Shown here piece after piece: positions 18,917 to 42,578 of a DNA stretch of 64,000 nt. Source of the stretch: Halobacteriovorax marinus SJ (GTDB lineage Bacteria > Bdellovibrionota > Bacteriovoracia > Bacteriovoracales > Bacteriovoracaceae); contig NC_016620.1 in NCBI RefSeq assembly GCF_000210915.2, positions 496,001 to 560,000 on the forward strand, given 5' to 3'. A program made the position numbers and the translations under genes. Positions within the stretch are counted from its first letter, which is position 1, and each line of letters starts with the position of its first letter. A model generated the notes under the pieces. The model searched no databases and was not told where the DNA came from. It saw only the letters and a list, made by a program, of their open reading frames with translations.

Positions 18917-21217
18917 CTACTCCTCTTTCTCTTCTTCTGCTAGTAGTGCAGTGATATTAGACATATTTACAATTTCAGAAATTGTAGCCGTTCTTTGAAT
19001 AATATTAACTGTATCATTCATACTTACTAGAATTGGTCCAATTGCATCAGCATCACTTAATTGCTGTAAGAGTTTGTAACTAATATTTGCAGAGTTTAGA
19101 TCTGGGAATATTAGAATGTCCGCAGGTCCTTTCATATCGGCAAAGCTAAAGAGCTTTTCTCTGATATAAGCATTAACTGCAACATCTGCTTGCATCTCAC
19201 CTTCAACGTTTAGTGATGGGTAGCGCTCATGACATAGCTTTACAGCTTGTTTCATCTTCTTGGCACCTGGATGATTATTTGAACCAAAGTTAGAGTAACT
19301 TACAAATGCAATATTTGGATCTCTGTTGATAAGTTGCTTAAATAGTTTTGAAGTAGACTTTGCAATATCACATAGATCTTCTGGTGAAGGATCAACTTGA
19401 GCAGTAGTATCAGCTAAGAAGAGAATTCTATTCTTAAAAATAAGGATATAGACACCAGCGGCCTTCATTGATTCTTGTGTACCAACAACGTTGATGATTG
19501 GCTTAAAACACTCAGGGTAACTTAGAGTTGGACCTGAGAGCATTGTATCGGCCATTCCTTTTCTAACCATCATGGCGCCGAAGTAATTCTCTTGTGCCAT
19601 CTTATCTTCTGCATGGTAGATACTTACGCCGTTTCTCTGTTTCATTGAGCAATATTCTCTGTAGAACTCTTTGAATCTTTCATGCTTTGTAGGTTCGATA
19701 ATTTCCAATTCTTTAAGTCCAGATAGACCAAGTTTATCCATTCTCTTTAAGATAATTTCTTTATTACCTAGGAGAATTGGTTCGATTCTTCCTTCCTCTT
19801 GTAGCAATTTAACTGCTTCAAGAATTCTCGTATTCGCACCTTCAGCAAAAACAACTCTTGTTTTCTTCTTATTCTTTTCTACTCTAGAGCTCAATCTGTC
19901 TCTTAGAGACTTAAGGAATCTTGCCGAGCTTCCAAGTCTTTCTTCTAGTTGCTTAGCATATTCGTTAAGGTCTTTAATTTGATGTTTTGCTACACCTGAG
20001 TCCATTGCAGCTTTAGCAACTGCAGGTGAGACTCTTGTGAGAACTCTTGTATCGAATGGCTTAGGGATTAAGTACTCTCTACCAAACTTAAAGTTCTGTC
20101 CGGCATAGGCCATTTTTACTTCTTCAGGAACTTCTTCTTTTGCAAGACTAGCAAGCGCTCTAACTGCAGCAAGTTTCATCTCGTCATTAATCTTAGTTGC
20201 TCTAACGTCTAGAGCTCCTCTGAAGATAAATGGGAATCCAAGAACATTATTAACTTGGTTAGGGAAGTCAGATCTTCCTGTGGCCATAATAACGTCAGTT
20301 CTTACTTCGTGAGCTTCATGAGGATAAATCTCTGGTTCTGGGTTTGCCATTGCAAAGATAATTGGATCTTTTGCCATAGTCTTTACCATGTCAGCATTGA
20401 GAACACCTCTCGCTGAACAACCGATAAATGCATCTGCACCATCAAGTGCGTCTGCAAGAGTTCTGCAATTAGTTTCAACTGCGAATTCTTCCTTATAAAT
20501 ATTCATTCCGTTTTCACGACCTTTATAGATAACTCCTTTAGAGTCACACATTAAAAGGTTTTCATTTTTTACACCTAAATTAAAGAATAGTTTTGCACAT
20601 GCCATTGCAGCAGCTCCGGCTCCACTGAAAACTACTTTAACTTGATCCATTTTCTTTTCAGCAATTTCAATCGCGTTGATAAAACCTGCTGAAGCAATGA
20701 TAGCCGTTCCATGTTGATCATCGTGGAAAACAGGAATATTCATTTTTTCAATTAATTGCTTTTCAATTTCAAAACACTCAGGAGCTTTAATATCTTCTAA
20801 GTTAATACCACCAAAAGTAGGTTCAAGAGATTTAACAACGTTTACCATCCCTTCTACTGTAGGCTCATTAACTTCAATATCGAAAACATCAACGTCTGCG
20901 AAGCGCTTAAAGAGTACTCCCTTTCCTTCCATTACTGGCTTACTTGCGAGGGCCCCGATATCACCAAGTCCAAGAACAGCTGTTCCATTGGAAATAACTC
21001 CAACAAGGTTTCCTTTACTTGTGTACTTGAAGGCATCTTCTGGGTTCTTTGCAATTTCTAGGCAAGGAACTGCAACACCTGGTGTGTAGGCTAGAGAAAG
21101 GTCTTCCGCTGTTAGGCAGGCCTTAGTTGGGACAACTTCAATTTTTCCCGGTCTTTCCCCATTATGGTAGTTAAGTGCTTGTTTATTTTTTTCTTCATTA
21201 GTAGGATTCGTGCTCAT
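18917..21217 (-). CDS. maeB: NADP-dependent malic enzyme with phosphotransacetylase-like C-terminus
   Basis: 766 residues, the size of MaeB-type malic enzymes. The first 430 residues are the malic domain ([43 protein letters not shown] nucleotide loop). The last 330 are a phosphotransacetylase-like domain ([24 protein letters not shown]-like sections). It converts malate to pyruvate with CO2 and NADPH; the extra domain is regulatory and binds acetyl-CoA. It is the first gene of the maeB-ridA-ydcF-like operon. AAGGATAATTCG precedes the ATG. Confidence 0.93.
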
Positions 21218-21300: not shown

Positions 21301-22746
21301 CTAACCTTTGCGCGCTGAGGCAAGTTGTTTAAATTGTGGATAAAAATAGAAAATTACAAGGGTGCTTCCCGTTGTTAAAACTCCGATATAGAGCTCGTCA
21401 ACATTTTGCCAGAATCCTTGATGAGTTGCGTTGCGCCAATAGGAAGTTGTAATAACGCCGAGTAGGCAAGTTGTTACAAATTGCTTATCGCTAATTCTTC
21501 CAGGGAAAATATATCCAAAGAGAACTGGAAAGAGTAGACAAGCCGCCGATAGGCTTCCAAGAGTTTTCCAAACCGTTTTAATATCACCATTGAAAACTTG
21601 TGCCATTATAATTGCCAAAACTCCTACAAGTAGAACCCCTAAGTGATGCATCATCGGTTTAGACCTAAGCCTCTTAGGTGCTAAGTCGTAGGCCAATGTT
21701 GTCCCGGCTAGAAAGAGGTATGAATCTATTGTGGAGAGAATTGTCGCCAATATACCAGCGAGCATAAATCCTCTTAGTCCATCTGGCAGAATCTGTGCCG
21801 CATATAAAAGGTAAGCGTGGGCGGAATTGGCTTCGGGCATAGTGGCCTTAGCGTACATAGCTCCAAAAGTTGTACAAATATCGAAGCAAAACCAGATACA
21901 AGTTGAGATTAGGATACCCTTCTTGGCCGTTTTAGGAGAGTTTGCAGCAAAACACCTTTGATAGAAGTTTGGATCGACCAAGGTAGAGAGAGCAATAAAT
22001 CCCCAAACTAATGTTGTCCCAATTCCAACACTACCGGTGAGGGAAAAATAACTTGAAGGTAAGCTCTCTTTTAAGAACCCAAGTCCACCAAAGTTCGCAA
22101 CACTCATAGCGAGAACTAAGAATACGCCTAAGCACATGACAAAGAATTGAACGAGGTCAGAGAAAACAACCGCCCTAAATCCTCCCCACATCGAGTAGAG
22201 AAGTACAAAGAAAACACCAATTGTTGTATTTAGCCAAAGCTCACCACCAAAGATCATTTGAGAGAAAATACCAAGGCTAATTGCATAGGCAATAGGCAGG
22301 ACGTTGAAGAAGTTGAATACCGCACTTAATTTAGCAGATTTTGGACCAAACATCTTTCCAATAAGATCAGGTAGTGTCACAGCTTGCATATGGGATATTT
22401 TATTAATGATAAAGAAAGCAAAAATAATATAGGCCACGTACCAGAATGCCCCTTGAGTGACGAAGTTAAATATCCCTTGGTTAAAAGCTATCTCAGTTAC
22501 TCCAAAAATTCCTCCATACCAAGTCGCTACGAGTGTCGCGATAAAGAGTGGAAGTGTGAGCTGCCTTCCCATTAGTAGAAGGTCTAGATAAGTCGAACTC
22601 TCATCTTGGGTTTGAGAGATTTTCTCTCTTTTTGACATTCCCCAGATGACACTTGCGCCAGTGAGAATGAGTACTGTGCAAAATACAATCCAGTCGAGAG
22701 TAGAAATAGTATCAATTAGATTAATAGAAGGATTTAATTCTTTCAT
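21301..22746 (-). CDS. Sodium:solute symporter under TPP riboswitch (ThiV-like)
   Basis: 481-residue SSS-family transporter with about 13 membrane segments. The helices around VWGFIALSTLVDPNFYQRCF and ILATILSTIDSYLFLAGTT fit the family (PutP/PanF-type, with the Ser-Thr sodium site near LSTIDSYL). What fixes its role is the leader at about 22750-22823, a TPP riboswitch reading into this ATG. Published comparative work describes an SSS transporter, ThiV, in thiamine regulons; this is probably the same or a parallel case. It would import a thiamine precursor such as HMP or the thiazole moiety, or thiamine itself, with sodium. No thiamine biosynthesis gene lies in the window. Confidence 0.85.
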   Translation of the reverse strand: MKELNPSINLIDTISTLDWIVFCTVLILTGASVIWGMSKREKISQTQDESSTYLDLLLMGRQLTLPLFIATLVATWYGGIFGVTEIAFNQGIFNFVTQGAFWYVAYIIFAFFIINKISHMQAVTLPDLIGKMFGPKSAKLSAVFNFFNVLPIAYAISLGIFSQMIFGGELWLNTTIGVFFVLLYSMWGGFRAVVFSDLVQFFVMCLGVFLVLAMSVANFGGLGFLKESLPSSYFSLTGSVGIGTTLVWGFIALSTLVDPNFYQRCFAANSPKTAKKGILISTCIWFCFDICTTFGAMYAKATMPEANSAHAYLLYAAQILPDGLRGFMLAGILATILSTIDSYLFLAGTTLAYDLAPKRLRSKPMMHHLGVLLVGVLAIIMAQVFNGDIKTVWKTLGSLSAACLLFPVLFGYIFPGRISDKQFVTTCLLGVITTSYWRNATHQGFWQNVDELYIGVLTTGSTLVIFYFYPQFKQLASARKG

Positions 22747-22749
22747 TGG

Positions 22750-22823
22750 TCTCCTTACGGCAGCATTACCTGCATCAAGTAAAGGGTCGAGTTAATACTC
22801 CTCTCAGCCGAAGCTCCCCTGAT
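22750..22823 (-). promoter_or_regulatory. TPP (THI-box) riboswitch
   Basis: Read on the minus strand, the leader contains AGGGGAGC, then GGCTGAGAGGA, then CTTGATGCAGGTAATGC and TGCCGTAAGGAGA. These are the conserved blocks of the thiamine pyrophosphate riboswitch in the right order and spacing. The AAGGAG at the 3' end of the aptamer (22751-22756) is the ribosome binding site of the symporter, about four bases from its ATG. TPP binding should therefore hide the site and shut off translation. This is seen directly in sequence; the mechanism is by analogy with known translational TPP switches. Confidence 0.93.
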
Positions 22824-22895
22824 TTTTAAAAGCATTATTGTAGAGTGATATTATCTTTATTATACTTATTAAGGCAATTAATAGGAGAAAAAATT

Positions 22896-23840
22896 ATGAC
22901 TTTAACACAACTAGAGTATGTCGTTGCAGTAAATAAGCATCGTCACTTTAAAAAGGCAGCAGCAGAGTGCAATGTGACTCAGCCAACTCTAAGTATGCAG
23001 TTGCAAAAGTTAGAAGACGAGTTAGGGATCATTATTTTTGATCGCTCGAAATCTCCTATTCTTCCGACAATTGAAGGTGAGAAGGTTATTAAGCAAGCTC
23101 AGGTTGTGATCAAGGAGTATAATAGAATTTTTCACATACTCGAAAACTCACAAGGAGAAGTTTCTGGAAAGTTTAGACTTGCAGTTATTCCAACTCTCGC
23201 TCCCTATATCATTCCTCTCTTCGCTAAGAAGTTTGCCGACAACTATCCACGAGTAGAGTTAGTGATTGAAGAGTTTAAGACAGATGAAATTATTGAACTC
23301 TTAGATAAAGAAGAGATTGATGCTGCAATTTTAGTGACTCCGCTACAAGAGCCTTCATTAATTGAAAGGGTTCTCTTCTTTGAGCCTTTCTATTTATTTA
23401 CATCTCCTGATCAAGATTTATATAAGAAGAAGAAAGTAAGAGAGTCAGATCTTTCTAAGAATAGTCTCTGGTTATTAAACGAAGGACATTGTCTTAGAAC
23501 TCAAGTCTTGAAGGTTTGTACTATGAATCTTGAAATGAGTAGTTATAAGAATTTAAGATTTGAATCTGGAAACTTAGAAACATTGAAGAACTTAGTCGTT
23601 CAAAGTTCTGGCTATACTCTTCTTCCATATCTCGCAACTTTAGACTTGAGTACTCAGAGAAAGAAAATGATTAGAGAGTTTCACAAGCCAGCACCAACGA
23701 GAGAAGTTTCTATCGTATACGGAAGAACTTTTCTAAAAGAGAAGATAATTGATGCTCTTGAAGAGACAATCGTCTCTGTTCTCCCAAAGGAAATACGCTC
23801 TTTAAAAGATGGAGACCTCTCAATCGTCGATCTATATTGA
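22896..23840 (+). CDS. oxyR: Hydrogen-peroxide sensor, LysR-type regulator OxyR
   Basis: 314 residues from ATG 22896 (MTLTQLEYVV), with TAGGAGAA in front. An upstream in-frame ATG at 22845 would add 17 odd residues and is rejected. The LysR helix-turn-helix is at residues 18-45. GHCLRTQVLKVC places cysteines at positions 199 and 208, the same numbering as the redox pair of E. coli OxyR; they form a disulfide when oxidised by peroxide. It activates peroxide-defence genes such as catalases and peroxiredoxins, none of which are adjacent. It is divergent from the riboswitch-controlled symporter. Confidence 0.93.
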   Translation: MTLTQLEYVVAVNKHRHFKKAAAECNVTQPTLSMQLQKLEDELGIIIFDRSKSPILPTIEGEKVIKQAQVVIKEYNRIFHILENSQGEVSGKFRLAVIPTLAPYIIPLFAKKFADNYPRVELVIEEFKTDEIIELLDKEEIDAAILVTPLQEPSLIERVLFFEPFYLFTSPDQDLYKKKKVRESDLSKNSLWLLNEGHCLRTQVLKVCTMNLEMSSYKNLRFESGNLETLKNLVVQSSGYTLLPYLATLDLSTQRKKMIREFHKPAPTREVSIVYGRTFLKEKIIDALEETIVSVLPKEIRSLKDGDLSIVDLY

Positions 23841-41422: not shown

Positions 41423-41499
41423 GGTCTCTTAGCTCAGTTGGTTAGAGCATCTCCCTTTTAAGGAGAGGGTCCTGCGTTCGAGTCGCAGAGAGATCACCA
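41423..41499 (+). tRNA. tRNA-Lys(UUU), copy 1
   Basis: 77 bases including encoded CCA. Acceptor stem GGTCTCT/AGAGATC, D arm GCTC...GAGC, anticodon stem TCTCC/GGAGA with loop CTTTTAA (anticodon TTT), and T arm CTGCG TTCGAGT CGCAG are all present. It is 16 bases upstream of tRNA-Glu 1. Confidence 0.97.
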
Positions 41500-41515
41500 T
41501 TTTTATTTTTAATGT

Positions 41516-41593
41516 GCTCCCATCGTCTAGCCTGGTCTAGGACACCGCCTTTTCACGGCGGTAACAGGGGTTCGAATCCCCTTGGGAGTACCA
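41516..41593 (+). tRNA. tRNA-Glu(UUC), copy 1
   Basis: 78 bases including CCA. Acceptor GCTCCCA/TGGGAGT (one G-U), anticodon stem CCGCC/GGCGG with loop TTTTCAC (anticodon TTC), and T loop TTCGAAT. The long D arm is typical for tRNA-Glu. Confidence 0.96.
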
Positions 41594-42406: not shown

Positions 42407-42483
42407 GGTCTCTTAGCTCAGTTGGTTAGAGCATCTCCCTTTTAAGGAGAGGGTCCTGCGTTCGAGTCGCAGAGAGATCACCA
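42407..42483 (+). tRNA. tRNA-Lys(UUU), copy 2
   Basis: Same 77-base sequence as copy 1, with CCA. It is preceded by its own promoter. Confidence 0.97.
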
Positions 42484-42500
42484 TTTTTATTTTTTAATGT

Positions 42501-42578
42501 GCTCCCATCGTCTAGCCTGGTCTAGGACACCGCCTTTTCACGGCGGTAACAGGGGTTCGAATCCCCTTGGGAGTACCA
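42501..42578 (+). tRNA. tRNA-Glu(UUC), copy 2
   Basis: Same 78-base sequence as copy 1, with CCA. The spacer from tRNA-Lys is 17 bases, one longer than in copy 1. Confidence 0.96.

Follow-up and report, generated by a model that had tools for sequence, protein, structure and literature searches.

Which compound does a sodium:solute symporter (SSS) of the marine bacterial predator Halobacteriovorax marinus SJ bring into the cell, and how is its synthesis controlled? Sequence is a poor guide to what an SSS transporter carries. The locus lies in a 64,000-nt stretch of contig NC_016620.1 (hereafter the window), where an open reading frame on the minus strand (21301–22746) encodes a 481-aa symporter. 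An earlier note on this DNA had proposed that a TPP riboswitch precedes the gene and that the protein carries thiamine or one of its precursors. Here an RNA sensor, an enzyme inventory, the mutual exclusion of the symporter and YkoE among relatives, and pocket residues jointly point to thiamine. Our reading, to which we give a probability of about 0.78, is that the leader acts as a TPP OFF-switch on the translation of a Na+-coupled importer of intact thiamine, which would be the main vitamin B1 supply of the cell.

A TPP aptamer in the symporter leader

Running the Rfam TPP model RF00059 over the leader, as the earlier note had proposed, gave a full-model match at window positions 22830–22735 on the minus strand (model positions 1–105, 53.6 bits, E 1.2e-9 in a 701-base search). 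The whole-genome E-value for the same match is 1.4e-9. The aptamer lies on the minus strand between a divergent LysR/OxyR-like gene (plus strand, from 22893) and the symporter ATG at 22746. Its score narrowly misses the curated gathering score (54.3), by 0.7 bit, and a default Rfam scan at that cutoff was therefore silent here; the aptamer was recovered by a permissive scan and through its orthologues. Read to the letter, the refuting outcome named in the earlier note, the lack of an Rfam hit above threshold, did occur, by this small margin. The missing bits are largely those of P1, which in the RF00059 alignment has only two standard pairs plus mismatches. In other respects the element resembles the RF00059 (THI element) family, with a full aptamer that has the conserved blocks and precedes a B1-related gene; it departs from the consensus in this very short P1 and in P4, described below.

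Orthologous symporter leaders score up to 72.7 bits against RF00059, and most exceed the gathering cutoff. When 31 symporter-linked orthologous leaders were aligned, 90.9% of the pairs in the aptamer helices were standard, and two-sided changes were found at 17 of 23 pairs. The covariation score was 0.417, compared with 0.153 for shuffled alignments and at most 0.132 for slid ones, and none of 500 shuffles reached the observed value. Despite the sub-gathering score, then, the orthologue scores and the covariation confirm the earlier observation, and by these two measures the minus-strand leader is a TPP riboswitch.

The narrow shortfall in score and the two-pair P1 could also mark a decayed relic, in which the response to TPP is gone and only the ribosome binding site has been kept. 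Orthologues elsewhere that are missing the switch would fit with such decay. We nevertheless regard it as very improbable: in the genus, each of the five genomes has retained a TPP site with E < 1e-8, and the P2–P5 helices are intact here and covary in the orthologues.

One further TPP match in the genome (19.5 bits, E 0.34) was dismissed as being at chance level, and the aptamer at 22830–22735 is the only TPP site in the H. marinus SJ genome with a significant E-value. Just upstream of it on the minus strand lies a possible promoter, TTGCCT-16-GATAAT (22877–22850), which we list as a lead only; five such promoter-like sites were seen in the region against 4.4 expected by chance.

A Shine-Dalgarno sequence inside the aptamer

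The earlier note held that the leader ends in the symporter's own ribosome binding site. This proved correct, and the site lies inside the aptamer. The Shine-Dalgarno sequence UAAGGAG (22757–22751, minus strand), 4 nt from the symporter ATG, is made up of the 3' strand of P4 (UAAG, 22757–22754), the GA of J2/4, and the first base of the P1 3' strand. A consensus Shine-Dalgarno sequence can sit there because of a compensatory change in P4, from CCUG/UAGG in the Rfam consensus to CUUG/UAAG, with the 5' strand CUUG at 22779–22776.

The same solution recurs among relatives. P4 reads CUUG/UAAG at 16 of the 32 symporter-linked sites and CUUG/AAAG at 10 of 32, compensating changes in which the C-G, U-A and U-A pairs are kept. 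The hexamer AAGGAG was found within the aptamer end at 26 of these 32 sites, and at most of them the start codon follows 7–9 bases past the end of P4. Where the aptamer precedes thiC or thiG, the first long open reading frame begins at least 66 bases away, and P4 stays CCUG.

This arrangement suggests, as its simplest reading, that the aptamer directly blocks the ribosome and needs no separate expression platform. At low cellular TPP, the short P1, P4 and J2/4 would breathe and leave UAAGGAG open; a ribosome settling there, 4 nt from the AUG, would make the symporter, and thiamine would be taken up. Imported thiamine would be converted to TPP by thiamine pyrophosphokinase. Bound TPP would then lock P1, P4 and J2/4, bury the Shine-Dalgarno sequence, and stop symporter synthesis. 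The translational control put forward earlier is thus supported as logic by a Shine-Dalgarno sequence within the aptamer and so near the start codon. If correct, this would be a compact switch, with sensor and ribosome binding site on the same bases.

Folding predictions bear on the two states of this switch. The duplex of the Shine-Dalgarno sequence with the anti-Shine-Dalgarno sequence is predicted at -9.0 kcal/mol. The free leader folded in isolation also pairs much of the Shine-Dalgarno sequence, with no clear exposure in the unliganded fold, so the proposed ON state is not obvious thermodynamically. A scan of the leader for terminators, a weak one, found none on the minus strand, which to that extent argues against a transcriptional mechanism. 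Direct overlap of aptamer and Shine-Dalgarno sequence has been proposed for some THI elements. Direct sensing through the Shine-Dalgarno sequence is also reported for a preQ1 switch (PMC10622847).

The symporter and its predicted pocket

The product of 21301–22746 matches the Pfam SSS family (PF00474, SSF) at 88.3 bits against a cutoff of 22.8 (E 6e-25); its match to TIGR00813 is below the cutoff of that model. An AlphaFold model (pLDDT 83.8) has a LeuT-type fold and compares with solved structures of CHT1, SMCT1, NIS, SGLT, SiaT and vSGLT at Z of about 30–33, which places the predicted fold nearest to choline, monocarboxylate, iodide and sugar symporters. Family match and predicted fold both agree with the sodium:solute symporter named in the earlier note. 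The adjacent residues S338-T339 are invariant in 28 homologues and align with the SS pair of vSGLT; we take them to be the Ser/Ser or Ser/Thr pair of the Na2 site. A scan of genome contigs for homologues found one close relative only, and a search of plasmids found only distant generic SSS proteins, at no more than about 31% identity among the matches listed.

Choline symporters of the CHT/SLC5A7 type (sfCHT, CHT1) are among the best structural matches, with Z about 32, rmsd 3.5 Å and 16% identity over 460 aligned residues. We know of no link between these transporters and TPP. Three aromatic residues that are invariant in the 28 homologues, W76, Y103 and W393, align by sequence with W99, Y126 and W445 of the bacterial protein sfCHT (PDB 9rws). 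These three belong to an aromatic pocket in which a quaternary cation sits (PMC13220886, PMC11589582). The other pocket tryptophans of sfCHT, W176 and W298, have no counterpart in the symporter, both falling in alignment gaps, and for this reason the pocket argument is suggestive only. Thiamine is a thiazolium cation, and the precursor HMP is neutral; an aromatic pocket would therefore suit thiamine better than HMP, and to this extent the three residues point to cationic thiamine as the cargo.

Thiamine enzymes and the likely cargo

The enzymes encoded in the genome narrow the choice further. Single-family HMM searches of the complete-looking H. marinus SJ genome, covering these four enzymes, gave no match for ThiC or ThiD and did not find ThiE or ThiL; the ThiM family was not found in a genus-level search. 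Weak ThiE-like matches in the genome were rejected as nitronate monooxygenases, and a ThiL-like match as PurM.

A 204-aa protein (C1:2079202–2079816) matches the Pfam family TPK_catalytic weakly, at 34.4 bits against a cutoff of 30.7, and scores 38.3 against TIGR01378, below that model's cutoff of 76.4. It contains GDGDS, EKDQSD and GQRKDH, which correspond to the GDxDS, KDxSD and GxRxDH motifs of thiamine pyrophosphokinases. On this weak match and these active-site motifs, a thiamine pyrophosphokinase is present in the predicted proteome. Six proteins with a Transket_pyr domain, of the TPP-dependent type, are also encoded, so the cell needs TPP.

With this kinase present and ThiE, ThiD and ThiL not found, only intact thiamine would be directly usable. 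HMP and thiazole would be dead ends, given that our searches identified no ThiC, ThiD, ThiE or ThiL in this genome and that the genus yielded no ThiM. The most likely cargo of the symporter is therefore, as far as gene content can tell, intact thiamine, and the ability to make vitamin B1 seems to have been lost in H. marinus SJ. The search for thi genes suggested in the earlier note thus divides its claim about cargo: the thiamine part is favoured by the kinase, and the part concerning HMP or thiazole is disfavoured. Its picture of a cell salvaging thiamine pieces, for which the salvage enzymes were not found, should give way to one of a cell importing intact thiamine.

A precursor cargo behind the same switch and symporter has a precedent in Pelagibacter ThiV. 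The ThiV protein of SAR11, an SSS symporter under a TPP switch, is likely an HMP importer, with signature residues Tyr78, Asp139 and Phe254 in SiaT numbering (PMC11452348). H. marinus shares with that system the transporter family, a TPP riboswitch directly upstream, a thiamine-auxotrophic host and a marine habitat. We still consider HMP or thiazole an unlikely cargo, because the enzyme set described above would yield no TPP from either. In addition, no conserved acid occurs in symporter residues 128–196, the segment that would hold cTMD3, where the SAR11 paper places Asp139, a comparison in which the sequences and the SiaT numbering are unaligned. The H. marinus symporter would thus differ from SAR11 ThiV in carrying thiamine rather than HMP.

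The transporter might instead be broader, carrying several cations, or phosphorylated B1 (TMP, TPP) that prey release; thiamine would then be just one substrate among others. Prey lysates contain TPP, and the predicted fold, near to symporters of such varied substrates, is compatible with a wide range. This too seems improbable: a thiamine pyrophosphokinase without ThiL suits free thiamine, not TMP, and SSS proteins are not known to carry pyrophosphates.

Intact thiamine remains our preferred cargo, and prey are a plausible source of it, since the host is a predator. The prediction that follows is of an obligate bacterial predator dependent on outside vitamin B1, probably obtained from its prey. 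An incomplete thiamine pathway in Bdellovibrio has been noted in a Bdellovibrionota genome paper; thiamine and riboswitches were otherwise unmentioned in the Bdellovibrionota genome papers that we word-searched, including PMC5760749.

Within the genus, one genome (G043; L011, L085, L103) retains ThiC and ThiG together with a fused ThiD-ThiE, and in it thiC, thiG and the symporter each have a TPP switch of their own. ThiC and ThiE are missing from the remaining four.

TPP sites among relatives

We surveyed 129 genomes of the family and found 69 TPP sites. Behind them lie this symporter (32 sites), a YkoE-type ECF component (16), TonB-dependent receptors (13), thiC (5), thiG (1), and small proteins of no known function (2); this last group aside, the genes that share TPP control with the symporter are B1-related or encode transporters. 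Outside the family, in other families of the phylum, a TPP switch was found directly upstream of 7 of 14 orthologous symporters. For many symporter orthologues within the family, the leaders that were examined showed no TPP switch, even on a permissive rescan.

YkoE (PF09819) belongs to a protein family unrelated to the symporter and is not found in the genus of H. marinus SJ; it stands behind the same riboswitch in relatives that lack the symporter, and we read it as a functional stand-in. YkoE was found in 20 of the 129 genomes and the symporter in 89, and no genome has both. Counted by genus, YkoE occurs in 5 and the symporter in 36, with none shared (Fisher p 5e-4, with genera that are not fully independent). 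This distribution looks as if one B1 importer had taken the place of the other.

An SSS symporter under a TPP switch is already known in the PanF-like thiV (PMC2211319). What sets the present case apart within that known pairing is the inferred cargo and the notable placement of the Shine-Dalgarno sequence. A bolder proposal for this lineage would combine a platform-free TPP switch, in which the Shine-Dalgarno sequence derives from P4 and ribosome and TPP-bound fold compete for seven bases, with a thiamine-specific SSS importer that differs from the ThiV that imports HMP and that can be exchanged, across the family, for the YkoE-type ECF system. We hold this combination at even odds.

Two sets of sites in the survey depart from the common pattern. 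In genus g36 (L120, L121, L138–L141, L160–L162) the symporter is kept, with no TPP switch in the leaders checked, and most of the TPP sites found there adjoin genes for TonB-dependent receptors. At two loci, L088 (G068) and L102 (G093), a TPP aptamer with an embedded Shine-Dalgarno sequence directly precedes small secreted-looking proteins of 121 and 154 aa.

Neighbouring features of the window

The divergent regulator upstream of the switch (22893–23840, plus strand) is of the LysR type; its best NCBIfam match is OxyR, at 213.5 bits and below the cutoff of 329, and it shares a gap of 146 bases with the leader carrying the switch. Directly downstream of the symporter, also on the minus strand, is a gene (18917–21217) whose product joins a malic enzyme to a phosphotransacetylase domain. 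Farther along the window the same pair of tRNA genes occurs twice (41423–41590 and 42407–42575), about 1 kb apart and with identical scores, which suggests a recent tandem duplication.
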